Source: Herbidospora cretacea
GTDB taxonomy: Bacteria; Actinomycetota; Actinomycetes; Streptosporangiales; Streptosporangiaceae
NCBI RefSeq assembly: GCF_001570605.1
Contig: NZ_BBXG01000002.1
Location: 280,549-344,548, forward strand
Direction: 5' to 3'
Length of the DNA stretch: 64,000 nt
This document shows, one piece after another, positions 3,661 through 27,852 of this stretch; the stretch's first letter is position 1, and each line of letters opens with the position of its first letter. Position numbers and translations under genes: made by a program. The notes beneath the pieces were generated by a model that saw nothing but the letters and a program-made list of their open reading frames with translations, was not told the origin of the DNA and did not search any database.

Positions 3661-3869
3661 GCAAGTATGTAGACCGCGCGGCGGTCGCCTCAAAGATTGA
3701 CCACGAAGGAGGCATCTATAGCTGGCTCCAATATGGAGCCGAAGACTACGAGATGCCTGACGATGAAACTTCGGGCGCCCTGCGCGTACTGAAGGAGTGG
3801 TGGGGCCGAGTGGAAACCGAGGCCGCCGGCTTCATGGCATTGCTGCCTGAACATTGGAGTGAGGACTAA
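3657..3869 (+). CDS. Hypothetical acidic phage protein (70 aa)
   Basis: GTG start overlaps the previous stop (GTGA arrangement) and the TAA overlaps the following ATG by one base, so it is translationally coupled on both sides. The product is acidic and tryptophan-rich (ALRVLKEWWGRVETE). No family recognised. Confidence 0.55.
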   Translation: MSKYVDRAAVASKIDHEGGIYSWLQYGAEDYEMPDDETSGALRVLKEWWGRVETEAAGFMALLPEHWSED

Positions 3870-4465
3870 TGAGTGACATCGTTGTTCTTGACACCGAGAC
3901 GAACAGCCTTCGGCCCGATCGGGTGCCGTGGGACGTGGCGATGGTCACTGTCGATGCAACCGGCACCGTCAAGGAGTATGCCGCCTTTGTCGAGATGACT
4001 CATTGGGACAAGGCCAACGCTGACCCGATGGCACTCCAGGTTGGCGGGTACTTCTCTCGCTATCCCGACTTCGTGCCTGGCGGATACGTCGGTCGCGCCT
4101 CGGGGGTTGCCCGTGATGTGGAGCGCTGGACGCGAGGCAAGACGATCGTCGGAGCGGTGCCGAACTTTGACACTGAGTGTCTCGCCGCGATGATGCGGCG
4201 TGAAGGCGTCGTGCCCAGTTGGCACTATCACCTCCTGGACATTGAGATCCTTGTCGCCGGCTACCTGATCGCCAAGGGCGAGAAGCTCAAGCTCCCGTGG
4301 AAGTCTGACGAGCTGAGCAAGGCCATCGGTGTGGACCCTGGCGACTATGACCGGCACACAGCTTTGGGCGACTGCCGTTGGACCCTGGCACAGCTCCAGG
4401 TCGTTGCCCCTCACCTCCTGGCGCCCACTCCTGCAACGCAGGATGGGCTGAGCCTCGCGGCCTAG
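3869..4465 (+). CDS. DnaQ-like 3'-5' exonuclease (DEDDh)
   Basis: A stand-alone DEDDh-family exonuclease of 198 aa. Exo I is VVLDTETNSL near residues 5-14 (D and E metal ligands). Exo II is NFDTECLAAMM around residue 98. Exo III is RHTALGDCRWTLAQL near residue 154, with the catalytic His and the last Asp. Such proteins hydrolyse single-stranded DNA or RNA 3' ends. In phages they may proofread or process nucleic acids alongside the replisome. It is coupled to the upstream gene (TAATG overlap) and separated by two bases from the next. No polymerase domain is fused. Confidence 0.85.
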   Translation: MSDIVVLDTETNSLRPDRVPWDVAMVTVDATGTVKEYAAFVEMTHWDKANADPMALQVGGYFSRYPDFVPGGYVGRASGVARDVERWTRGKTIVGAVPNFDTECLAAMMRREGVVPSWHYHLLDIEILVAGYLIAKGEKLKLPWKSDELSKAIGVDPGDYDRHTALGDCRWTLAQLQVVAPHLLAPTPATQDGLSLAA

Positions 4466-4467
4466 CC

Positions 4468-4974
4468 ATGGAAGAGATTCCTTGGCACAACGGCACGGTT
4501 CTCAGGGTCCACGAAGGATGGATGTGTGCCGGTAGGCACTGCTCGATCCACAACCCATCCGATCACCACATGGTGTCGTGGCGTCAGGGGTGGCGCTCGG
4601 ATCGCGGACTGATGGAGCGGCTTTGCCGGCACGGTGTAGGCCATCCGGACCCTGACGACATTGACCGCAAGCGCCGTGCGCGCGGCGATGACTTCGCCTG
4701 GGCGGAGGCTGTTCACGGGTGCGATGGGTGTTGTCGACTCGTCCGCGGTGAGGTCATCAAGGATCAGACGAGCACGACCGAACACAAGATGCCTGCGAGC
4801 GTCTATCGGGTTTACCCCGAAGCGGCCAATGGGCGAAACCTCTATGGGGATATCGGCGCAGCACGGAGTGTGGTCGCTGAACGCAAGCGGCACTCAGGAT
4901 GGAAGCCCGTTCTGCGTGTTTATCGGGCGAAGACCGTATGGGAAGACGTCACTCACGAATTCGTGAAGCAATGA
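4468..4974 (+). CDS. Conserved actinophage protein, Cys/His-rich (168 aa)
   Basis: The N-terminal half has a Cys/His pattern (MCAGRHCSIHNPSDHHM, then LCRHGVGHPDPDD), followed by CDGCC near residue 88, which could bind zinc. Proteins with the phrase R-x-C-x-HGVGHPDPD recur in actinophage early regions, but I know no function. It sits directly upstream of the methyltransferase with an ATGA overlap. The C-terminal half (SVYRVYPEAANGRNLYG) is strand-rich. ATG 4468 was chosen because the upstream extension of the frame lies within the exonuclease gene. Confidence 0.6.
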   Translation: MEEIPWHNGTVLRVHEGWMCAGRHCSIHNPSDHHMVSWRQGWRSDRGLMERLCRHGVGHPDPDDIDRKRRARGDDFAWAEAVHGCDGCCRLVRGEVIKDQTSTTEHKMPASVYRVYPEAANGRNLYGDIGAARSVVAERKRHSGWKPVLRVYRAKTVWEDVTHEFVKQ

Positions 4975-6035
4975 GAGTCGGCTCGGTTTGCACGGGCTAC
5001 GGCGGCCTTGAGATCGCCCTAGAGGCCCTCTTTGAGAACGTCGAACTGATGTGGGTGGCAGACACATCTAAGGCCGCGAGCCAGCTTCTAGGGGCGCGCT
5101 ACGGCGTGCCAAATCTGGGCGACATTCGCGCCGTTGATTGGTCCGCAGTCTCACCGGTTGAGGTCTTGGTGGGCGGCATCCCATGCCAGCCCTACTCAAT
5201 AGCTGGCACGCAGAAGGGAGAACAAGATGAGCGTGACCTTATCCCCGCCTTCATTGAAGCCGTTCGCGTCCTTCGACCTAAGCTCATCGTCGTGGAAAAT
5301 GTGCCCGGATTCCGCAAAGGCGGTCTTCCGCGGCTCGTCGGAGCGCTGGCCGAGATGGGGTATGACGCGCAATGGACGAGCGTACGCGCTGACGAAGCCG
5401 GAGCACCCCACATCAGAGAGCGGACATTCGTCGCTGCTACTTACGCCAACGGCCAACCTTGGCAGCAATGGCGGCGCAAGGCCACCAGAGACCAGGAGAG
5501 CCGGGGGGCATGGTCCGACACTGGCGGATCAAGTGGTGTTCACGCTCTCCCCACACCCACCGTCGCCCTAGCGACGGGAGGCCAGCGCTCAAGGAGTGGC
5601 ACACGCAAGGGCGAGAAACTTCTCTCGGGTATCGCGATTGAGCTTCTCCCCACCCCGAACACCGGCCAAAGCCCTAACGGTCATGGGATGCGTGGTGGCG
5701 CATGGGGAAACGGAAGGCAGTCCGGGAAAGACCTTACGGCGCTGGCCGGCTCCGGCCATTGGGGAAAGTACACAGCAGCAATCGAGCAATGGGAAGGCGT
5801 TCTAGGGCGCACGGCGCCCGCGCCTACCGAGATTGGCCCGAAGGGTAATCCCCGCCTAGCCGCGCCGTTCGTGGAATGGATGATGGGCTTGGGCCGTGGA
5901 TGGATAACTGATTTCGCATTCCATCGCGGGGAAATTTTCACCTTGCTCGGTAACGGCGTAGTGCCACAGCAGGCAGCAAGAGCAATCGGAGAGTTGATCG
6001 ATGGCTGGGAAGAAGATTGTCGAGTCGCCGCCTAA
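4971..6035 (+). CDS. Phage C5-cytosine DNA methyltransferase
   Basis: A complete C5 MTase of 354 aa. Motif I is SVCTGYGGLEIAL (SAM binding), motif IV is GGIPCQPYS with the catalytic Cys, motif VI is VVENVPGF, and motif VIII is APHIRERTF. Motifs IX/X are represented by LLGNGVVPQQAARAI at the C-terminus. A proline-rich linker (HALPTPT, ELLPTPN) and WGKYTAAIEQWEGVLGR precede the end, an arrangement typical of actinophage MTases. It probably protects phage DNA from host restriction; no cognate endonuclease is nearby. The start overlaps the preceding stop (ATGA). A second coding frame is embedded at 5227-5571. Confidence 0.9.
   Translation: MRVGSVCTGYGGLEIALEALFENVELMWVADTSKAASQLLGARYGVPNLGDIRAVDWSAVSPVEVLVGGIPCQPYSIAGTQKGEQDERDLIPAFIEAVRVLRPKLIVVENVPGFRKGGLPRLVGALAEMGYDAQWTSVRADEAGAPHIRERTFVAATYANGQPWQQWRRKATRDQESRGAWSDTGGSSGVHALPTPTVALATGGQRSRSGTRKGEKLLSGIAIELLPTPNTGQSPNGHGMRGGAWGNGRQSGKDLTALAGSGHWGKYTAAIEQWEGVLGRTAPAPTEIGPKGNPRLAAPFVEWMMGLGRGWITDFAFHRGEIFTLLGNGVVPQQAARAIGELIDGWEEDCRVAA
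5227..5571 (+). CDS. Embedded (overprinted) ORF inside the methyltransferase gene (114 aa)
   Basis: This +1-frame ORF lies wholly inside the MTase gene. Its ATG is preceded by AAGGGAG with a 6-base spacer, better than many single genes here. The translation has elements that in other phages form a domain beside Dcm-type MTases: SSSSWKMCPDSA, then SERWPRWGMTRNGRAYAL, then LLTPTANLGSNGG and GGHGPTLADQV. The same bases in the MTase frame encode motifs VI to VIII, so both frames look constrained. The ORF stops just where the MTase frame resumes the same LPTPT-type sequence. It may be a separate small protein or a relic of a frame-switched MTase. Conservation in relatives was not checked. Confidence 0.55.
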   Translation: MSVTLSPPSLKPFASFDLSSSSWKMCPDSAKAVFRGSSERWPRWGMTRNGRAYALTKPEHPTSESGHSSLLLTPTANLGSNGGARPPETRRAGGHGPTLADQVVFTLSPHPPSP

Positions 6036-6240: not shown

Positions 6241-6715
6241 CTGGTTCAAGCGTGACAAGAAGGCTGAGCCCGCTCCCGAGCTTGAGGGGCTGGGTACCGA
6301 CTCGGGCGTGTCTAGTGAGCGCTGGGCCGCGATGGCGGCCGGTGTCGGCGCTCGTGGCTATGAGGTGACCACCCCTGCGAGCGCTCCCGTGGATGAGGTG
6401 TACGACCAGGAGAAGGACGAGCCGGCCGAAGAGCCGGTGCCTGTGGTCGACGACGGAAAGACGGTCATTGAGGTTCCGGCAGGTCTGGACCGTGAACTGT
6501 TCGGCCTGGTCGATCCCGAGACGGGGGATGTCCGCACGTACTACGCCCTGTCTCACCTGAAGAGCGCGGCGACCCACCTCGGTGGGATTGCCAACTTCGA
6601 AGTCTGGGAGGGAGTGACGATCTGGACCCGAGTCGAAGTGCCGGGCGCCATCAATCCCCCTGACGGGGCTGTGTACATTGCCGAGCTGTACTCGACGGAG
6701 CCCGTGAATGCCTGA
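6233..6715 (+). CDS. Hypothetical acidic phage protein (160 aa)
   Basis: GTG 6233 has an AAGGAGA ribosome binding site 7 bases upstream, which decides the start. The N-terminus is basic (FNWFKRDKK). A low-complexity acidic Pro/Glu/Val stretch follows around residues 55-80, then a compact C-terminal domain (RTYYALSHLKSAATHLGGIANFEVWEGV). No function is evident. It overlaps the RNA ligase gene by 8 bases. Confidence 0.55.
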   Translation: MFNWFKRDKKAEPAPELEGLGTDSGVSSERWAAMAAGVGARGYEVTTPASAPVDEVYDQEKDEPAEEPVPVVDDGKTVIEVPAGLDRELFGLVDPETGDVRTYYALSHLKSAATHLGGIANFEVWEGVTIWTRVEVPGAINPPDGAVYIAELYSTEPVNA

Positions 6716-7289
6716 GTTCATCGCGTGGCCGAAGACTCCACGCCTCCTGAAGCCCGTCATTGTTACCGAGAAGATCGACGGCACCAACGGATGCGTGATC
6801 GTCGATGACGATGGAACCGTTCACGCCCAATCGCGTAAGCGCCTTCTACTCGAAGGCGAACAGGACAACCACGGTTTCGGGGCTTGGGTGCGAGAGCACT
6901 CCGAGGTGCTGGCCGAGACTCTGGGCCCTGGTCGCCATTTCGGGGAATGGTGGGGTCATCGAATCGGCAGAGGCTACAACTGCAAACCTGGCGAGCGCTA
7001 TTTCTCCCTCTTCAACACGAGCAAATGGGGAGAGGATGAGGGCGTTTATAGGGCTGCGGAGATCGGCCTTGATGTGGTGCCCGTTTTGTGGACTGGAATC
7101 CTGGACACAAACGAGCTTCTTCGTATCTCGGCGGCCCTGATCAAGGACGGCAGCGTGATCGCCTCCGGATTCGCTCAGCCCGAAGGAATCTGTATCTTCC
7201 ACACGGCTTCGAATCGCGTCTACAAGATGACCTTCGACAAAAACTCGCAAGACGAACTGACTCAGGCGGGATTGGTGCTCGCTGCGTGA
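6708..7289 (+). CDS. RNA ligase family protein (nucleotidyltransferase domain only, 193 aa)
   Basis: A minimal covalent nucleotidyltransferase domain: motif I TEKIDGTNG supplies the adenylated lysine (Lys22), FGEWWGHRIG resembles motif III, EGICIFH resembles motif IV and VYKMTFD motif V. The size and the EKIDGTNG form fit Rnl2-like RNA ligases rather than DNA ligases, and no OB-fold follows. It would seal nicked RNA, for example tRNAs cut by host anticodon nucleases; this phage carries three tRNA genes at 31.9-32.2 kb. The role is inferred; the family assignment is solid. Confidence 0.82.
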   Translation: MPEFIAWPKTPRLLKPVIVTEKIDGTNGCVIVDDDGTVHAQSRKRLLLEGEQDNHGFGAWVREHSEVLAETLGPGRHFGEWWGHRIGRGYNCKPGERYFSLFNTSKWGEDEGVYRAAEIGLDVVPVLWTGILDTNELLRISAALIKDGSVIASGFAQPEGICIFHTASNRVYKMTFDKNSQDELTQAGLVLAA

Positions 7290-18157: not shown

Positions 18158-20011
18158 TTGCGGACTAGTAATCAAGCAGTCAACCGCGTTGGAATTGCCA
18201 AGGCCAAGGAACTGGTATTAGCCCAGCTCAGAGCCGGTAGGACCGTTGCATCCGCGACGGCTGCCGTGGGCAGAGGGCCCCGAAGCTACGAGTACTGGCT
18301 TCGAAGTGACGCGGATTTCAAGGCTCAGGTTCAAGTCGTGCGGGCCGTCCGTGAAGACGGTCCGACTCCCGCCAACCGCTCGATGACCTTCGCCGACTGG
18401 CGCCTGAAGTACCTACAGGCTGCGACGTTTCCGCACCAGCTCAACATGATCGACGTCATCGAGAACCGGGAGCCTCGCTGGCTCCATCCGTCGATGCGGT
18501 ACGAGCAGAACGACCGGCAGATGGTTCTCATCAACATCCCGCCTGACCACGCGAAAACGGTCACATGCACCATTGACTACGTTACGTATCTCTTGTGCAT
18601 GAATCCGGACGAGCGAATCGTCCTGGTATCAAAGACGGCCGAACTTGCTAGCCAGATGCTTTGGGCCATCAAGCAGCGTTTGACTCACCCGAGGTATGCC
18701 CAGCTCCAACAGGACTTCGGGCCCCCTGAGGGGTTCGACTCTGACGACGCTCAGTGGCAGTCCACGAAGATCCTGTTCCCGAGTGCCATCCGGAATCCGG
18801 AGGAGAAGGACCCTACGGTCCAGATCGTTGGCATCGGAGGACAGATCTACGGGGCGAGAAGCACCAAGATTTTTGTCGACGACGCAGTCCTTCTCTCCAA
18901 CGCCTCTCAGTACGCCAGTCAGAAAAGATGGCTGGAACAGGACGTTTTGTCTCGGCTTGGTGACACCGGGCAACTGATCGTGGTTGGCACTCGCGTCGAC
19001 ACGGTTGACCTGTATCGGGAGCTCCGCAACCCGGACAACTATGAGGATGGCGTTTCGCCTTGGACCTACCTCGGCATGCCGGCCGTCCTGGAGACGGCGG
19101 ATGATCCGAACGACTGGGTGACGCTCTGGCCGAAGAGCGACCGGCCGTGGCCGCGGAGTGATGACCTTCCGGATGAGGATGGGCTTTACCCCCGATGGGA
19201 TGGGCCTCGCCTTGCTCGTCGACGGAAGAGCATCGATCCCCGTGTCTGGTCGATGGTCTATCAGCAGATGGACGTGTCAAGCGACGCGATCTTTGACCCG
19301 AGAGACATCCGTGCCTGCGTCAACGGCAACCGCACGGTTGGCCGACTGAGCGCGAACAACAAGCATCACGACCGGCCAGACGGCATGGACGGCCTCTATG
19401 TCATCTGCGCTATGGACCCTGCTATGGCCGGCGAGACGGCCACCGTTGCCTATGCGGTTGATCCGAAGACGCTGAAAAGGTACGTGCTCGAAGCGCATCG
19501 CATGCGCGCTCCTTCGCCATCAGCAATCCGAGACATCATTGAGAGCTGGACCACGAAGTATGAGCCGTCATGCTGGATCGTCGAAAAGAACGCCTTTCAG
19601 CTCTTTCTCACAAGGGATGAGCAGATCCGCTCCTTCCTTGCGAATCGCGGTGTTGCGATGCTTGAGCATTACACCGGGACCAACAAGCTTGACCCTGATT
19701 TCGGCGTGGCTTCACTTTCTCCTCTCTTTAAAGAGCGGATGATCTCGCTTCCTTCCTCGCACAACTCGGAAGGCGTGAAGGCTCTCATTGAGCAGCTCGT
19801 CACCTGGCGCCCTGGAGCCAAGGGCAAGGACCTTGTTCAGGACCTTCCGCTAGCGCTCTGGTTCGCGGAGATCAAGGCGAGGCAAGTGGTTGAGCAGCGC
19901 ACCTTGCGCGCGAAAAGCCATATGAGTTCGAAGTATGTTCCGCGCTACCGGCGCGGATATCAAAACGTCATCCATATTGATGATCTGATCCAGGCGAGCA
20001 ACGCCGCATAA
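18158..20011 (+). CDS. Terminase large subunit with N-terminal HTH region (617 aa)
   Basis: Packages phage DNA into proheads. Residues 12-65 form a helical HTH-like segment (AKAKELVLAQLRAGRTVASATAAVG) that looks like a small-terminase DNA-binding domain fused to the motor. The ATPase follows: INIPPDHAKT at 126-134 as Walker A and KIFVDD at 237-242 as Walker B. A nuclease domain begins near CAMDPAMAGETATVAY (about residue 418), with further acidic residues downstream. Start is TTG 18158. No separate small terminase gene is seen upstream, which fits the fusion. The portal gene follows with a one-base overlap. Confidence 0.9.
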   Translation: MRTSNQAVNRVGIAKAKELVLAQLRAGRTVASATAAVGRGPRSYEYWLRSDADFKAQVQVVRAVREDGPTPANRSMTFADWRLKYLQAATFPHQLNMIDVIENREPRWLHPSMRYEQNDRQMVLINIPPDHAKTVTCTIDYVTYLLCMNPDERIVLVSKTAELASQMLWAIKQRLTHPRYAQLQQDFGPPEGFDSDDAQWQSTKILFPSAIRNPEEKDPTVQIVGIGGQIYGARSTKIFVDDAVLLSNASQYASQKRWLEQDVLSRLGDTGQLIVVGTRVDTVDLYRELRNPDNYEDGVSPWTYLGMPAVLETADDPNDWVTLWPKSDRPWPRSDDLPDEDGLYPRWDGPRLARRRKSIDPRVWSMVYQQMDVSSDAIFDPRDIRACVNGNRTVGRLSANNKHHDRPDGMDGLYVICAMDPAMAGETATVAYAVDPKTLKRYVLEAHRMRAPSPSAIRDIIESWTTKYEPSCWIVEKNAFQLFLTRDEQIRSFLANRGVAMLEHYTGTNKLDPDFGVASLSPLFKERMISLPSSHNSEGVKALIEQLVTWRPGAKGKDLVQDLPLALWFAEIKARQVVEQRTLRAKSHMSSKYVPRYRRGYQNVIHIDDLIQASNAA

Positions 20012-21828
20012 TGCTTTTCTCACACTACACTCCCCGCCCGCTAACGCCCCTCAAGGCCATCTTTGCCAAGGTTGACGAGCTTAGGGCTAGCCAGTCTGAG
20101 CGTGATCGTGCTGACGCTGATGTCTTCGCAGTGCGAGACGGCAATATCGACGATGTCTTTCCGGGAATGTTCTCGGAGGACTTTCCGAAGCCGATCATTG
20201 CGAACTTCGTCGACATCGCCGCGCGTGATGTAGCGGAATCACTGGCTCCGCTTCCGAGCTTCAACGGCTCGGCGACCAATATGGTTTCGGATGCGGCCCG
20301 ATCGAAGGCCGACAAGAAGACCAAGGGCATGGCCCACTATCTGACGCACTCTGATCTACAGACGCAGATGTATAGCGGTGCCGACTATTACGCCTCTTAT
20401 GGGCGTATGCCGATCCTGATTGAGCCGGACTTTGAGGCGCGCTCGCCGCGCTGGCAATTGATCGATCCTCGCAATACGTATGCGGAAGTCGATCGCTACG
20501 GTAAGTGCCACGCCTTCACGCAGGTGTTCAAGAAGAGCATTGCCGAACTATGCATCGAGTATCCCGAGTATGCGGATCGCATTCCCGGACCGACCGATAC
20601 GCCATATTCTCAAAGCATGATCGAAGTCATCCTTTATCGGGATGACGAACGCACGATGATGTACGCGCCGGAGCGGCATAACCTGGTCCTGGCGGACGCG
20701 AAGAACACCATGGGTGAATGCGCGGTAGCCTACGCAGAACGCCCCGGCCTTAAGCGCGGTAGAGGTCAATTCGCCGATGTCCTCTGGACGCAGGTAGCCC
20801 GTAACCGTTTCGCCAATCTGGCGATGGCGGCAGCCGAGCGAGCAGCCGAGGCACCCCTTGCGGTGCCCATGGATGTCCAAGAGTTCTCTCTCGGTGCAAT
20901 GGCTCTACTTAGGAGCCAGAATCCCGAGAAGATTCGCATCGTTGGTGCCGATCTGCCGCAAGCGGCTTTCGCCGAATCACAGCTTCTCGACAATGAACTT
21001 CGCATCGGTGCCCGTTATCCGCAGACGCGGACGGGTAATCTTGATAGCAGCATCATCACTGGTCAAGGCGTACGCGCTCTAGAGGGCGGATTTGATAGCC
21101 AGATCCGTGCTGCGCAAGACGTCTTCGCCGGTGCCTTTCGTGAGGCCATGCGGCTCAGCCTCAAAATGGATGAGCACTATTGGCCCGATGATGAGCGAAG
21201 CATTCGCGGCAACCAAGATGGTGTGCCGTATGAGATCCGCTGGAAGCCTAGCCGAGATATAGACGGCGACTATTCTGTCGACGTTTCCTATGGTTTTGCC
21301 GTTGGCCTTGATCCGAACCGGTCGCTCGTCTTCATTCTCCAGCTTCTTGGCGCACGCCTCATCAGTAAGGATCTGGCTAGGCGGCAGTTTCCCTTCGGCA
21401 TCAATGTCACGCAAGAGGAACAGCGCATTGTCGTCGAAGACCTGAGAGACTCTCTGGTCCAGTCTTTGGCCGGCTACGCGAACACCATTCCATTGCTGGC
21501 GGAACAGGGAATGGACCCAGCCAGCGCAATCAGTAAAATCGCAGCGGTCATCAAGGGCGCCCAAAAGGGCAAGGCCCTGGAAGACATTGTTGAGAAGGCG
21601 TTTGCCCCACCCGAGGCCCCGCCAGGGGCCATGTCTCCTACCCTTCCCGGTTCTGACGGCATGATGCCTCCCGGAATGGGTGCCCCTGGCGGTATGCCTC
21701 CGGCCCCCGGCCAAGCCCAGATGGGTCCTGGCGGATCTCCGGATCTGATTACCATGCTCGCTGGTCTTAATTCCAGCGGTGCGCCAACTACTAATGTCAA
21801 CATCAAGCGAAGGCAACCCGCGTTCTAG
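20011..21828 (+). CDS. Portal protein (605 aa)
   Basis: Position directly after TerL, size, and a long alpha/beta body with a C-terminal Gly/Pro/Met-rich tail (residues 530-590) identify the portal, the dodecameric entry ring for DNA. Characteristic stretches include NFVDIAARDVAESLAPLP and the SQLLDNELRIGARYPQTRTG segment near residue 330. The Met/Gly/Pro-rich tail is shared in composition with the 120-aa protein encoded at 22.3 kb. The stop overlaps the next GTG. Confidence 0.85.
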   Translation: MLFSHYTPRPLTPLKAIFAKVDELRASQSERDRADADVFAVRDGNIDDVFPGMFSEDFPKPIIANFVDIAARDVAESLAPLPSFNGSATNMVSDAARSKADKKTKGMAHYLTHSDLQTQMYSGADYYASYGRMPILIEPDFEARSPRWQLIDPRNTYAEVDRYGKCHAFTQVFKKSIAELCIEYPEYADRIPGPTDTPYSQSMIEVILYRDDERTMMYAPERHNLVLADAKNTMGECAVAYAERPGLKRGRGQFADVLWTQVARNRFANLAMAAAERAAEAPLAVPMDVQEFSLGAMALLRSQNPEKIRIVGADLPQAAFAESQLLDNELRIGARYPQTRTGNLDSSIITGQGVRALEGGFDSQIRAAQDVFAGAFREAMRLSLKMDEHYWPDDERSIRGNQDGVPYEIRWKPSRDIDGDYSVDVSYGFAVGLDPNRSLVFILQLLGARLISKDLARRQFPFGINVTQEEQRIVVEDLRDSLVQSLAGYANTIPLLAEQGMDPASAISKIAAVIKGAQKGKALEDIVEKAFAPPEAPPGAMSPTLPGSDGMMPPGMGAPGGMPPAPGQAQMGPGGSPDLITMLAGLNSSGAPTTNVNIKRRQPAF

Positions 21829-22345: not shown

Positions 22346-22708
22346 ATGAGGATTCCTGACGCCCAATATGGTGAGCAATCAGCCTTCCAGGATATCCAGG
22401 GTGGCGCTCCCATGGCTGCGGGCGGAGGCGGCCCTATGCCGCCGATGAATACGGGAATGCCGCCTGTAGATGTGGTGCCCTTCGGGGCACCCACCATGCG
22501 CCCTAACGAGCCCGTCACTTCTGGTATTGACCTCGGCCCTGGGCCTGGTAGTGCTTCTCTCGGCCTTCTGGACGAAGCGGCGCTCGCTCGCCGGGCTGAC
22601 ATGGATGCGCTCTACGCCTATCTGCCCGTGCTCGAATTCCTGGCCAATCGGCCGAATGCCACGCAATCACTGAAGAACGTTGTCAGACGCCTGAAGGCGT
22701 CCCACTAA
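22346..22708 (+). CDS. Gly/Pro/Met-rich virion-associated protein (120 aa)
   Basis: The N-terminal 60 residues are low complexity (MAAGGGGPMPPMNTGMPPVD), like the tail of the portal. The C-terminal 45 residues are helical (LDEAALARRADMDALYAYLPVLEFLA). A structural or assembly role beside the portal is likely from position. The stop overlaps the start of the 1,714-aa gene. Confidence 0.5.
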   Translation: MRIPDAQYGEQSAFQDIQGGAPMAAGGGGPMPPMNTGMPPVDVVPFGAPTMRPNEPVTSGIDLGPGPGSASLGLLDEAALARRADMDALYAYLPVLEFLANRPNATQSLKNVVRRLKASH

Positions 22709-25700
22709 TGAGCTCTTGGACTGATCGCTTCTCCGCCGCTTTGACGGCCCTGCAAGACGCCTACGGCGCCGCGTTCGACTGGAGTACACAGCCGTTCGAA
22801 GTCAACACTCCGGCGTACATCGACATCACGAACCGTCTCGGCCGAGTCCTCGGCGGGGTGACCAACGCTTTCGGGAACACTCTGGCCGGCGCTGCGGAAG
22901 GCACCTTTGAGGGCGTTGGCTGGGGCCTGGAAAACCTGGTGGCCGAGCCCATTTCGGCGGCAGCCACCACGGCTAGCCTCACCGATTCCCCGGCTTGGCG
23001 TCAGCAGCTTGGCGCGGCCAACTGGATGGAAGCCGTCAGCAAGATCGGTACCACGTGGGACCGCGCTCGCAAGATGGCCGACACTCGTTCGGCCGGCAAC
23101 AGCCTCGCGCTGATGTTCGCTACTGATGACGTCCTGGCGGAAGAGGCTAGGATCTCGGAGCTTCAAGACGGCTTCTTGTGGAACGCCACCACGGGCACGA
23201 TTGATGCCGCTATCTCCTGGTTCGGCGATCCGACCATCGTGGGATTGAAGGCGGTATCCGGCGCGAACGCAGTTCGTAAGGGTTTCAATGTCGGGCATCG
23301 TGCATCCGACCGCGGTTGGACCGCGTTCCTTGCTGGTGCCGGGGTTGGCCCTGGTGTTCAGAGCGCGGATGACATCGCGGACTCCAGGGCCGTGACGAAC
23401 TTCCTGAAGTGGAAGCAAGGCAAGAGCGGACGGGAGATCGCCAACCACCAGGCGGTCAAGGCATCTGCCTACCCGAGCGTGATGGCTGGCCTTCTCCAGG
23501 AGGCCGACGAGCAGACCTCACGCCTGATCATCGCCGTTGGCTACGGCAGCGAAGCTGCCTACCAGCGCCTAGCTAGTCGGCGGGATGATCTCGCGTTCCG
23601 CATCGCCCGCGCTGACAACATCCTGAACTCGGCCGTTGACTTTGAGCTGGTCAAGAGCGGCACCTATAAGACCTTCCTTCCGAAGGCCCTTCCTTCGCAG
23701 GGCCCTAAGGCTCCCGAGCCTGAGCAGCTTCCGCTGTTCGACATCGGCCAGTTCCCGGCCGGTGAGCCCGGCATGGGCGGCAAGGCCGCCAAGGGCAAGA
23801 AGAAGGCGAAGAGTCCGACCGATACCGATGATCTCGACTTCGGCGGGCAGCCTGCCGGCAAGTCTTTTGAGTATCCGTCGATCTCCGGCAATCTGCCGAA
23901 GACCGTTCAGGGCAACATCATGATCGCGCCGAAGGCGGGCGATCGGGTAACCGGCCTTGGTGGCATCTCGGTCGACGCTGGTCCCTACATGATGTCCGGC
24001 CCCGTCAACGAAGAGGCGATCAAGGACCTCATCCCATACTTCAATGGGCTATCGCAGGCAGACGCCTACCGGGCGATTGCCAGTCTCGACAACCCGATCC
24101 CTGGCCTGCCTCCGAAGCCGGCATGGCAGAAGGCAACTGACTGGCAGATGCACGACGAGACCCTAAACGCCCTCGGTCAGGGCTTTGATGAGTCGTCGTC
24201 GATGCGCATCAAGCCGTGGCCGATCGCCAGTCAGCGCGCAATGCTGATGGCTCAGGAGGAGATCAAGCGCAAGAGTGGGTCCGAAATGGAGCTGCTCATT
24301 GCCGCCATTGGTCCTGGTGGTGAGAACCCCGGGCGTGGCGTATGGGCCAGCATGCAGGACTATGCGATTCGAAATGATCGCGACCTGGCCAAGGCCGATA
24401 GGGCGCTTGCCTACGATTGGTCGAGTAAGTCTCTCGCGGATGAATCCGTGATCTTCCCGAAGGCTTTCGGTCTTCCGGTTCGAGTGATCCGGGATTTCCC
24501 GCTTGGCGTGGCGCGCAGCTTCACGCAGAAGCGCGCTCCTAGTTGGATCGACTTCAACCGTGGAGATTCCCACGCGGGCTTTGCCGCGTTCCTGAATGGC
24601 GCTCGGATCTTCTCGAATGGCCAGCGTGAGACGTACATGCGCCAGTATATGGCTGCGTGGACTCCCGAGGCTAAGCGCAAGGTCGTCGAAGCTGCCGAGA
24701 CTGACGCTATCAATTTCATGGCCATCAAGTATGGACTTGATGATGAAGCTGCCGCAGCACTTGCCAAGGAGTCGACTGGCACGCGGAACCGTCTCGTTAA
24801 GGCGATGACGGAGAAGCGCGAGAACAAGTATGCATCGCCGGCCGTCCTTGACCACATCGCGTTTGACGACGATGTTCTTCCGGTGACTTCGCGTCTTTTT
24901 GAGACGCAGGCCGTTAACTCGATGCCTCTGCTCAACCTTGACCGATATGAGCGCGTCTTTCGCGCCAACTCTGAGATCCTGAGTGCCTTTGCGCGCAAGC
25001 GCGCGGACATCGGCGATTTCATGGACAAGGCGCATGACGTCTTCTCTCAGGTCTGGTCCTTCTCGGTTCTCATGCGGTTCGGGTATACGATCCGGACGCT
25101 GACTGATGACATGCTGCGCAGCATGGCTGCGCTCGGTGCTATGAGCATCATGGGCGGCATCAATGCCGGTTTGAAGACCGCGTTCACATGGGACATGGGC
25201 AATGCATGGTCCTGGGGCGATCTAATTCGGAATAAGCAAATCACCCTGAAGGACTCGGCCCCCGCGAAGCGCCTCAAGAACGCTGTCACTCATACGAAGA
25301 TCGGCGCACTCAAGCTTGGCGCCGGAGCCTTGGCGACAAAGGCCATGGACTCAGCGGACCTGCAAGAGTTGCGTTCAATCGTGCAAGAGGCTGTTGACAG
25401 GCATGGCCGAGACCTTGAGTCAGTTCGAATTCAAACCGAAGACGGCTTTGAGTATCGCGGTCATTACATCACCGGCGCCTATGAAGGTGTCGGGAAGCCT
25501 TATAAGGAAATTGTCGGCGGATCGTATGACGCCATCGCGCGTACGTCCAAGGAGATGATTGAACGGCTCCGCAGCGAATACGCTGCGTGGGACGTCAAGA
25601 ATCCGACCGACGCAGACCATCTGTCCTCATGGCTGTACGCCATCAATGAGCAGATCTTTAAGAGTCCGCTGGGTAAGCGGTTCATGCGCGGCGAGACTGC

Positions 25701-27852
25701 CGAACAGGTAGAGCGCTGGCTGCGTCGCACGCCCGAAGGGCAGCATGTTCGCAAGCTGATCGGCCCGAACGGCAAGGACCCTGAGCTGCTGGCCGGCATG
25801 GCTCAAGCCATTGTTGATCACTATGTGCCGGTCCTTCGCGCCCATGAGAATCCGATGATTCTGCGTGATGCCGTGTTCCGTGGGCAGCTTGACGAGAAGA
25901 TGCTTGAGGAGTTTTTCCCTGACGTCGCGATGCGCCCTCAGGTCCACGGTCCCACCATTGATTGGAACCTGCACCAGGGCGGTGTCCGCAAGTGGATGGA
26001 TTCAATTGTCTCGAATGGTTTCAAGTGGCTCAGCCAGGTTCCGACTGACCGTCTGATCAGGCATCCCACGTTCCGTGTGCTCTATCAGGATTCCGTGAAG
26101 CGTCAGATTGACAATGCGATGCTCTCCGGTGAAGACGTCACGTGGGGGATGCTTTCCGCATTCGAGCACACTGCGCGCGAGACCGCGCTCAAGAATATCA
26201 ATAACCTGCTCTACAACGTTTCCAGCCGGAGCAACGCGGCCCATGCCGCGCGTTTCATGACGGGCTTCTTCTCCGCCTGGGAAGATTCCATCAAGCGCTG
26301 GTCTCAGTTGGCGGTTGCCAAGCCGCAGCTACTCTTCTACGGCAGCAAGATTTGGGATGCCCCGAATAACATGAATCTCGGGAGCACCGAGAACGAGTTC
26401 GGTCAGCGCGTTCCGCGCCTTGCGGTTGTCGACGAGCATGGCCGGCAGGTTAAGAGCATGGTCATCAATGGCCGCACGGTCTTCGCCACCTATGATGAGG
26501 ACACCGGCAAGTGGTCGGAATTCAATTCGAACCTGAACGACAAAACGAAAATCGTTGCTCGCCTGCCTGACTGGTTGCGGAAGTGGATCGGAGAAGGCGC
26601 TGAGAGCTATGACGCGGTTCCCATCCCCAAGTCGTCACTCAATCTGATCCTTCAGGGTGATCCCTGGTGGCTGCCCGGTGCGGGGCCACTCATGCAGATC
26701 CCGATTACGCAGCTCCAGCAGAAGAACCCCACGGGGTTCCAAGACGTCTACAAGTGGGCTATTCCGTTCGGGCCTCAGTCCTTCGCTGACGTCATGCTTC
26801 CCGGCTGGCTGAAGCAAAAGATGAAGGCGAACGAGGGAATCGAAGACCCGTCATACGCTTTCACCTGGACGCAAATCATGCAGACAGAGGAGATGCGTAT
26901 CCGGGAAGGCCGCCGCACGCGGCCGGCCAGTGAAGTGGAGTTCCGCAAGGAGATCGACAGGCGCACTCAAGCGGCGTACAACGTCCGGTCTTTCACTCGG
27001 TTCTTCCTGCCCTTCTCGGCAGACCTGCAAAGCCCGTATCAGTTCTTCATTGACCGCTACCAGCAGATGCGCGAGCACTACGGCCAGGAGGCCGACGAGC
27101 GGTTCTATGAGAAGTATGGCGACGATCTCTATATTTTCACCAACAGCCTGAGCAAGGGCAATATCGGCGCTACGGCGACGAAGACCGCTTGGGAAGCGAC
27201 CAAGAAGCATGGCGATCTGATTGCGCAGAATCCCGAGTATGGCGCTCTGATCATGGGGCCGGACGTCATGACCGGCAAGTTTGATCAGTACGTTCATTCA
27301 GCTCAGTTCGGCCAGAAGGTTGGTCCTGGCTCCCTGATGACGACGCGCGAGCGTCGCTCACCCTTGGACGCCCTGAGGGAAACGAACATCCGCCTGGGCT
27401 GGACCAAGTTGAACGCATGGATGAATGAGTTGAACGCTGAGGCCGTCGAGAAGGGTCTTGATGATAAGACCGTGGCCAAGGTGCGTACGGCTCTCACGGA
27501 GCGTCTCAGCGCTGAGAACAAGGATTGGGGGGACGAGTATACGAAGTCGGATCGCGATGCGATCCCGAAGCGTATCGAGTTCTTCAAGTCTCTCGTTCAG
27601 AACGCTGAGCTTCTTTCGCAGCCGAACCGCACCGACCTTCGGACCCTCAATGAGTACCTGAAGGCGCGTGCCCAGTTCGTTGCCATCCTTCAGGCGAAGC
27701 AGAAGGCGCAAGTCCCGTACACCCTGGACGCTCAGGCCAACGCTCATATCAAGAATGCTTGGGAGCGCGTTCAGCGCTATTTCGAGATCAGTGACACCCG
27801 ATTCGGTGACCTGTTCTCGCGGTATCTCACTAACGATAAGTTGCAATTTTAA
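22708..27852 (+). CDS. Very large virion protein, probable internal/ejection protein (1,714 aa)
   Basis: The largest gene of the phage. It lies between the portal and the virion peptidase, ahead of scaffold and capsid, not among tail genes as a tape measure would be. The sequence is mostly helical, with no transmembrane clusters typical of tape measures and no catalytic motif I recognise. A Pro/Lys-rich linker (PLFDIGQFPAGEPGMGGKAAK) lies near residue 345. The C-terminal third contains conserved-looking aromatic stretches (AHAARFMTGFFSAWEDSIKRW near 1180). By analogy with podoviruses it is probably an internal core protein ejected with the DNA. The exact role is unknown. Confidence 0.6.
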   Translation: MSSWTDRFSAALTALQDAYGAAFDWSTQPFEVNTPAYIDITNRLGRVLGGVTNAFGNTLAGAAEGTFEGVGWGLENLVAEPISAAATTASLTDSPAWRQQLGAANWMEAVSKIGTTWDRARKMADTRSAGNSLALMFATDDVLAEEARISELQDGFLWNATTGTIDAAISWFGDPTIVGLKAVSGANAVRKGFNVGHRASDRGWTAFLAGAGVGPGVQSADDIADSRAVTNFLKWKQGKSGREIANHQAVKASAYPSVMAGLLQEADEQTSRLIIAVGYGSEAAYQRLASRRDDLAFRIARADNILNSAVDFELVKSGTYKTFLPKALPSQGPKAPEPEQLPLFDIGQFPAGEPGMGGKAAKGKKKAKSPTDTDDLDFGGQPAGKSFEYPSISGNLPKTVQGNIMIAPKAGDRVTGLGGISVDAGPYMMSGPVNEEAIKDLIPYFNGLSQADAYRAIASLDNPIPGLPPKPAWQKATDWQMHDETLNALGQGFDESSSMRIKPWPIASQRAMLMAQEEIKRKSGSEMELLIAAIGPGGENPGRGVWASMQDYAIRNDRDLAKADRALAYDWSSKSLADESVIFPKAFGLPVRVIRDFPLGVARSFTQKRAPSWIDFNRGDSHAGFAAFLNGARIFSNGQRETYMRQYMAAWTPEAKRKVVEAAETDAINFMAIKYGLDDEAAAALAKESTGTRNRLVKAMTEKRENKYASPAVLDHIAFDDDVLPVTSRLFETQAVNSMPLLNLDRYERVFRANSEILSAFARKRADIGDFMDKAHDVFSQVWSFSVLMRFGYTIRTLTDDMLRSMAALGAMSIMGGINAGLKTAFTWDMGNAWSWGDLIRNKQITLKDSAPAKRLKNAVTHTKIGALKLGAGALATKAMDSADLQELRSIVQEAVDRHGRDLESVRIQTEDGFEYRGHYITGAYEGVGKPYKEIVGGSYDAIARTSKEMIERLRSEYAAWDVKNPTDADHLSSWLYAINEQIFKSPLGKRFMRGETAEQVERWLRRTPEGQHVRKLIGPNGKDPELLAGMAQAIVDHYVPVLRAHENPMILRDAVFRGQLDEKMLEEFFPDVAMRPQVHGPTIDWNLHQGGVRKWMDSIVSNGFKWLSQVPTDRLIRHPTFRVLYQDSVKRQIDNAMLSGEDVTWGMLSAFEHTARETALKNINNLLYNVSSRSNAAHAARFMTGFFSAWEDSIKRWSQLAVAKPQLLFYGSKIWDAPNNMNLGSTENEFGQRVPRLAVVDEHGRQVKSMVINGRTVFATYDEDTGKWSEFNSNLNDKTKIVARLPDWLRKWIGEGAESYDAVPIPKSSLNLILQGDPWWLPGAGPLMQIPITQLQQKNPTGFQDVYKWAIPFGPQSFADVMLPGWLKQKMKANEGIEDPSYAFTWTQIMQTEEMRIREGRRTRPASEVEFRKEIDRRTQAAYNVRSFTRFFLPFSADLQSPYQFFIDRYQQMREHYGQEADERFYEKYGDDLYIFTNSLSKGNIGATATKTAWEATKKHGDLIAQNPEYGALIMGPDVMTGKFDQYVHSAQFGQKVGPGSLMTTRERRSPLDALRETNIRLGWTKLNAWMNELNAEAVEKGLDDKTVAKVRTALTERLSAENKDWGDEYTKSDRDAIPKRIEFFKSLVQNAELLSQPNRTDLRTLNEYLKARAQFVAILQAKQKAQVPYTLDAQANAHIKNAWERVQRYFEISDTRFGDLFSRYLTNDKLQF

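Follow-up and report, generated by a model that had tools for sequence, protein, structure and literature searches.

The 64,000-nucleotide stretch of Herbidospora cretacea DNA analysed here (the window), part of contig 2 of an 8.28-Mb genome, probably encodes a two-polypeptide phage C5-cytosine methyltransferase (MTase). The longer polypeptide, alpha, is read in frame 0, and a 114-residue product, beta, is nested within its gene in the +1 frame; beta most likely associates with alpha and provides target recognition, in full or in part. In relatives of the gene, the +1 frame is conserved as coding sequence, an internal start signal recurs just ahead of it, and the conserved C-terminal parts of the enzyme can be assigned to one frame or the other.

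In the model that we propose, alpha would fold as the catalytic domain plus motifs IX-X, and beta would be translated independently from an internal Shine-Dalgarno (SD) sequence and ATG in the +1 frame. Beta would comprise an N-terminal part overprinted on MTase motifs VI-VIII, which may dock onto alpha, followed by an LPTP module, and it would give target recognition in trans, wholly in the relatives called type F below and partly in the window. Phage DNA would thereby be marked against restriction. In C5-MTases, the stretch from motif VIII to motif IX holds the target recognition domain (TRD); because LPTP modules occupy this position, we consider target recognition the most likely role of beta.

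Two Reading Frames in a Phage-Like Setting

The MTase gene has a phage-like neighborhood (Table 1). Near the terminase and portal genes, a 1714-aa ORF (window positions 22708-27852) matches PHROG 10618, a family of unknown function (E 2e-77).

Table 1. Features of the MTase gene and its surroundings, in window positions
Feature	Position	Strand	Evidence or remark
Exonuclease-like protein	3869-4465		Phage-like neighborhood of MTase gene
Alpha: 354-aa C5-cytosine MTase read in frame 0; motifs I-VIII are followed by two LPTP modules and motifs IX-X	4971-6035	+	PF00145, M.HhaI profile, AF2
AAGGGAG, SD-like, 6 bases 5' of beta ATG 5227	5214-5220	+	Sequence; SD+start enrichment in relatives
Beta: nested ORF, +1 frame, 114 aa	5227-5571	+	Sequence, tblastn, phrog_1008, shuffle test
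Beta N-terminal part, overprinted on MTase motifs VI-VIII	5227-5430	+	Conserved +1 columns, Leu-codon choice
LPTP-type module of beta, +1 frame (LLLTPTANLGSNGG...LADQV)	5431-5532	+	Similar +1 module in relatives
Alpha linker, frame-0 reading of most of the beta module	5454-5546	+	Type-F substitution pattern, frame 0 open
Two frame-0 LPTP modules of alpha (LPTPTVALATGG..., LLPTPNTGQSPNG...)	5547-5757	+	Translation
Frame-0 motifs, presumably IX (RLAAPFVEWMMG) and X (GNGVVPQQ)	5850-5975	+	Translation, invariant columns
RNA-ligase-like protein	6708-7289		Phage-like neighborhood
Terminase large subunit	18158-20011		Phage-like neighborhood of MTase gene
Portal	20011-21828		Phage-like neighborhood

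The MTase frame is open from 4899, with a probable start at the ATG at 4971. Alpha is a C5-cytosine MTase by family match (PF00145, E 4e-30), by its PCQ, ENV and RxR motifs, and by its catalytic fold. A profile search aligns residues 3-161 with M.HhaI (E 2e-27), which is also the best Foldseek match of the alpha model (E 2.8e-14, TM ~0.54, with the modelled linker disordered). AF2 predicts most of residues 1-160 and 271-340 with pLDDT >90; residues 173-259, which hold the two frame-0 modules, are left unfolded at pLDDT <50, in an alignment that has few rows with LPTP modules in frame 0. By the motif numbering of C5-MTases, the last two alpha motifs would be IX and X.

An earlier, sequence-only reading of this DNA had described a 114-codon ORF in the +1 frame of the MTase gene, led by AAGGGAG six bases before its ATG, and both are there; the three peptides that it quoted, GGHGPTLADQV among them, are present in the translation. 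It had further stated that the same bases encode MTase motifs VI-VIII and that the embedded ORF stops where LPTPT begins. Frame 0 indeed carries ENV (residues 109-111) and GAPHIRER (residues 144-151) in bases that also belong to the beta ORF, and LPTPT starts at 5547, with the +1 stop codon at 5569-5571. The overprinted part of window beta retains the residues that are hallmarks of the family (PFA.YDP, SSW and WP.SG.TR.G.AY), and the SD, the ATG and one module are also kept. From stop to stop the window +1 ORF spans 122 codons, compared with a median of 246 in 85 loci, and it is among the 7 of these 85 with at most 125 codons.

Selection on the +1 Frame

From 113 loci, we removed 2 with no alpha match (leaving 111) and 16 duplicates, which gave 95 distinct loci; a further 9 were dropped for an alpha match or ORF that was too short, and 86 were kept. 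As a null, synonymous codons were permuted within each frame-0 gene. The similarity scores come from 47 loci selected on MTase residues 1-90, with no more than the 30 best taken from each search; one of them, L113, is an ordinary MTase.

At residues 121-135, +1 similarity across the 47 loci reaches z 16.6, compared with z 7.0 for the +2 control; at residues 91-105 the two are nearly equal (z 11.5 and 9.2). Shuffling leaves relatedness in, which inflates z, and the +1 frame also scores z 5 to 10 upstream of the overlap, so we take the +2 frame as the yardstick. By this measure residues 121-135 show a clear +1 excess and residues 91-105 a slight one. A set of 16 named phages gives z 14.5 for +1 versus 4.7 for +2 at residues 121-135, and +1 stops are absent from both segments in the 47 loci (z -3.6 at 121-135 and -4.2 at 91-105).

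The choice of leucine codons in frame 0 is also telling. In the overlap, Leu is CTA in 36 of 60 loci at residue 101, where the +1 frame then reads Tyr, and CTC in 43 of 45 at residue 129 (+1 Ser); at residue 138 it is CTA or CTT in 34 of 41 (+1 Phe or Tyr). Residue 126 is CTG in 48, CTT in 28, TTG in 7 and CTC in 1 of 84 loci (+1 Trp, Leu or Phe). At the upstream Leu sites listed, CTA occurs in at most 5 of 50 loci (residue 15), and residue 13 is CTC in 37 and CTG in 28 of 76; some upstream sites are biased as well, namely residue 6 (CTG in 43 of 64) and residue 49 (CTC in 42 of 56). In the relatives, then, rare frame-0 Leu codons are chosen that yield +1 aromatic residues. Wobble divergence in the overlap is only modestly reduced.

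Ordinary C5-MTases provide a further comparison. For these controls we used enzymes of the host's family plus one of its class, and 4 of 21 were dropped when their motifs were not found. The +1 frame is open in 3 of the 17 remaining controls versus 39 of 46 members of the studied MTase family, and the +2 frame in 2 of 17 versus 20 of 46.

For the window itself, the probability that no +1 stop occurs over residues 87-190 is 0.12, which makes openness alone weak evidence. Scored against the family +1 columns, however, its +1 residues at MTase positions 87-160 (74 codons) reach 71.3, versus 9.9 (sd 12.0) for the null (z 5.1), and none of 2000 synonymous shuffles scored as high. The window +1 ORF is thus more than chance. 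The sole near copy found was an IMG/VR contig identical across both ORFs, and because no close relative was found, selection on the window's own beta is judged by comparison with the family.

Taken together, these observations indicate selection on both frames of the same bases, seen in the overlap among relatives and by the shuffle test in the window. They bear out the proposal of the sequence-only reading that both frames are protein-like, since frame 0 and codon usage together leave part of the +1 conservation in relatives unexplained. Relatives with an intact MTase and a closed or unrelated +1 frame had been named as what would speak against dual coding; most relatives carry a homologous +1 frame.

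An Internal Start Signal for the Nested Gene

In relatives, an SD-like run followed by ATG (frame 0 ...KGTxDER) or GTG (frame 0 ...RSG) lies just 5' of the +1 conservation. The Ser of ...RSG is AGT in 24 of 60 loci, compared with 88 of 919 Ser codons overall. At the homologous position, 23 of 46 loci have an SD+start versus 2.7 under the null, with a maximum of 9 across 500 shuffles, and the highest count at 13 other positions is 3 of 46. Among the named phages it is found in 7 of 16 (2.1 expected; shuffles reach at most 6), and in an independent set of 39 actinobacterial-type viral contigs in 12 (1.7 expected). The Acinetobacter-type set, described below, is weakly enriched (11 of 78 versus 6.1). 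By its nucleotide sequence, the overprinted gene thus appears to have a start signal of its own in the actinobacterial sets, with a weaker indication in the Acinetobacter type. No start codon was present in the scanned stretch of 18 of the 86 loci, and in 14 of these 18 the +1 ORF begins only farther downstream.

Frame Usage of the LPTP Modules and Motifs IX-X

We typed the 86 loci, which are mostly actinobacterial, by motif patterns. Type F, with 44 loci, has its LPTP modules solely in +1 and its motif IX-X half in frame 0; another 9 loci have modules in both frames, with the IX-X half again in frame 0. The split type, with the IX-X half in +1, accounts for 16 loci, 6 of them from Pseudomonas, and in another 16 the C-terminal half was not found by pattern. 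We group the window with the both-frame loci, because its first module reads LLTP and so escapes the pattern. In split relatives, beta, bearing motifs IX-X, completes the enzyme.

Substitutions were counted between loci paired by DNA similarity, with frame ignored, and are given as fractions on frame-0 positions 1/2/3. Type-F loci show.30/.23/.47 in the N part,.32/.19/.48 in the overlap and.28/.23/.49 in the C half, compared with.59/.22/.19 in the LPTP region (91 segments, 38 loci); because substitutions there run in this manner, we read the type-F LPTP region as +1 code. Split loci show.69/.18/.13 in the LPTP region and.64/.16/.20 in the C half, and mixed loci.30/.20/.50 in the LPTP region, the last from 5 segments. 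Along the gene in relatives, the coding signal is therefore in frame 0, then in +1, then in frame 0 again.

Frame 0 is nevertheless kept open where the code is in +1. The type-F LPTP region has 0 frame-0 stops in 3889 codons, with 37.7 expected, and frame 0 is open through it in 44 of 44 loci versus 22.2 expected. An open frame 0 over a region coded in +1 implies that alpha is kept as one chain by way of a linker and that the conserved modules belong to beta.

A tree of 105 MTase N-parts, with the Acinetobacter-type set thinned to a third and rows lacking a motif-IX label left out, needs 8 changes in the frame of motif IX, and at least 4 of them are forced by well-supported branches. The place of the window in this tree is unsure, because it is a long branch.

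One LPTP module of locus L031 shares 85-91% identity, across 45-48 aa, with modules of the viral contigs L166, L168 and L169. This similarity suggests that LPTP modules are exchangeable cassettes.

Homologues of Beta and Their Annotation

Searched by tblastn, window beta matched 39 phage records, all of them actinobacterial phages (best E 2e-15), and 3 Streptomyces plasmids; within the host's family, 30 of 341 genomes, the host genome included, had a match. Both an MTase and a beta match were present in 52 of the first 59 loci, and the beta match lay in the MTase +1 frame in 51 of them; the lone frame-0 exception, L053, is a match to a module only. Six further phage or plasmid records again had beta in +1. 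The sequence-only reading had likened parts of the ORF to a domain seen beside Dcm-type MTases in other phages. The phage matches do exist, but the domain proves to be the same overprinted +1 sequence (51 of 52 loci). Among actinobacterial-type viral contigs, beta is in +1 in 45 of 47, with one in frame 0 and one having no alpha match; of the 45, 26 overlap the alpha match and 19 match only farther downstream.

Window beta matches phrog_1008 (E 1e-9), as do the five relatives tried, down to 5e-42. PHROG 1008 ("DNA methyltransferase") is a family label, and its match table is silent on the overprinted N-terminal part. Window beta and the beta sequences tried from relatives had no match in Pfam or NCBIfam, and a profile of window beta matched no PDB sequence at E<=1. 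The predicted structure of beta alone is poor (pLDDT 61.5, pTM 0.34).

Annotation of the pair varies among records: some list two overlapping "DNA methylases", and others give ArV1 067a/067b, the nested Babsiella 54/55, Leyra 61/62, or K1G gp34/gp35. In Rhodococcus phage ReT1v-2 (L029 1257-1931) and Actinomyces phage xhp1 (L005 1714-2013), the annotation covers the +1 beta frame but, of frame 0, just its end; the full frame-0 MTase ORF, which starts upstream, is missing. In locus L111, the ENV region is followed in frame 0 by beta-type sequence (PFARWNPTSGVWET...), as if joined by a frame change. Six Pseudomonas loci (L010, L011, L012, L014, L015 and L016) have both frames open along nearly the entire gene, with ends within 20 bases of each other.

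Relatives Beyond Actinobacteria

In phages of Acinetobacter, Microcystis, Lacticaseibacillus, Salmonella and Synechococcus, the +1 gene carries motif IX and motif X is in frame 0. The G+C content of these loci is 37-60%, with three at 37-46%. A search with the Lacticaseibacillus beta matched 124 phage records, mostly from phages of Paenibacillus (54) and Escherichia (39), and with the Acinetobacter-phage beta as query at least 598 relatives were found among viral contigs. We kept 80 of these contigs, and in all 80 beta is in +1 and overlaps alpha. Motif IX in +1 with X in frame 0 is found in 72 of the 80; of the other 8, one shows IX in frame 0 and X in +2, and in 7 at least one of the two patterns is missing.

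Openness was assessed in the 58 of 80 loci in which all motifs were found (22 were dropped). All 58 have an alpha frame free of stops across beta's own part (3.8 expected), and in all 58 the beta frame is likewise uninterrupted in the overlap (15.8 expected); because the loci were chosen by beta, the alpha figure is the less biased of the two. For substitutions, the fractions are.67/.19/.14 (LPTP region) and.67/.21/.12 (surroundings of motif IX).

Alternative Explanations

The +1 similarity could be a by-product of a conserved frame-0 protein and G+C-rich codon usage, given that the hosts are high in G+C, that part of the +1 excess is common to the +2 control, and that upstream Leu residues 6 and 49 are biased too. 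We give this explanation practically no credence. CTA and CTT, which are little used upstream, are picked where the +1 frame has Tyr, Phe or Leu, the +1 frame is seldom open in ordinary MTases, the same gene occurs in the three phage loci of 37-46% G+C, and substitutions in the LPTP region follow the +1 frame. We therefore rejected chance and codon usage on +1 similarity, Leu codons, substitution positions and the openness of the Acinetobacter type. The succession of coding signal from 0 to +1 to 0 along one gene would also be expected if programmed frameshifting fused the three stretches into a single MTase chain. This would require two shifts, however, and +1 conservation begins well inside the conserved frame-0 part; with an internal SD+start that recurs and a frame 0 kept open across the +1 stretch, where all of the expected stops are missing, frameshift fusion is disfavored and seems to us very improbable.

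The low-confidence fold of beta would suit a separate regulator or counter-defense protein that merely shares DNA with the MTase. But the same +1 ORF carries motifs IX-X in split relatives, which makes it part of the enzyme there, and it carries motif IX in the Acinetobacter type, so that a separate function is highly unlikely. The remaining explanation concerns the window lineage, in which beta might be a remnant: an indel would have rejoined the C-terminal half to frame 0, leaving alpha to work alone and the +1 ORF to decay. Because alpha by itself has motifs I-X and two LPTP modules, all in frame 0, it might indeed work without beta, and the short window +1 ORF fits with decay. Against this stand the SD, the ATG, the hallmark residues and the one module that window beta keeps, its score relative to the shuffles (z 5.1), and the persistence of +1 coding in relatives whose IX-X half is in frame 0. 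On balance, we consider a remnant unlikely and favor the two-polypeptide enzyme.

Implications and Comparison with Known Systems

A broader idea, which we regard as quite possible though short of probable, is that in this clade of phage MTases target recognition has moved from the catalytic chain to a nested, overprinted specificity subunit. LPTP cassettes could then sit in either frame, and specificity would change by swaps of cassette or frame while the catalytic protein stayed constant, an HsdS-like division of labor within one gene length. If the two-polypeptide model is true, a common phage MTase is unevenly annotated, as alpha alone, as beta alone or as two "DNA methylases", and cloned members of the family would be predicted to seem inactive in some cases if the longer frame alone is expressed. 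The family would also offer a large, well-sampled natural example of overlapping coding with both frames measurable, and the role of the nested protein could be tested by removing one start codon.

The available text of PMC2884959, PMC3025963, PMC6070908, PMC3439449, PMC6456624 and PMC4574080 holds nothing on the alpha/beta overlap. Among the matches listed, drawn from partial texts and from coverage mostly outside the subscription literature, we recognized no paper on a TRD-bearing nested subunit of this MTase family.

Lee, Kam and Shaw are said to have described in 1995 that the small gene of M.EcoHK31I is nested in another frame. Compared by gene and motif layout, and if M.EcoHK31I is nested as reported, the window is alike in that its small-subunit gene is nested in the large one in another frame, and the Acinetobacter-type relatives (72 of 80) share the motif split, with IX in +1 and X in frame 0. 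According to the accessible part of one source, M.AquI and M.EcoHK31I are two-polypeptide C5-MTases, and M.EcoHK31I (YGGCCR) has motifs I-VIII and X in its large polypeptide and IX alone in the small one (PMC3404938). The window differs: IX and X are both in alpha, and beta consists of the N-terminal part plus one LPTP module and does not carry motif IX. The predicted TRD of M.EcoHK31I is placed, in that same part of the source, in the larger subunit and not the small one (PMC3404938), which counts against a TRD role of beta. M.AquI, as described there, has an alpha with motifs I-VIII and a beta with IX-X (PMC3404938). This is the arrangement of the split relatives, such as phages Lilbooboo, phiBT1 and ArV1, and not of the window, where IX-X are in alpha and beta is fully nested.

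Another actinophage methylase, ShiLan gp65, carries a mobile insertion, as reported in the available portions of PMC11855218 and PMC9957025. Here too a second-frame gene lies inside an actinophage methylase, but in ShiLan it is an out-of-frame homing endonuclease in the inserted stretch, whereas the window overlap is of conserved MTase motifs VI-VIII. A homing endonuclease of this type was rejected for window beta, as no HNH family was among its Pfam or PHROGs matches. Totally overlapping C5-MTases are described in Streptococcus thermophilus 5093-group phages, with an S. pneumoniae phage and Tn5252 cited alongside (PMC5601072, in the part accessible). As the arrangement is described there, these resemble the window in that a single stretch of DNA encodes two MTase products, each in its own frame; they differ in that the accessible description comes without an analysis of selection or starts (PMC5601072).

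The sequence-only reading had called the dual-coding arrangement rare. It is instead widespread in the relatives, and its kind is known from M.EcoHK31I and the streptococcal phages. The nested two-polypeptide MTase is already known in outline, and the window would be a variant of it, with motifs IX-X in alpha and a beta of 114 aa that has one module.
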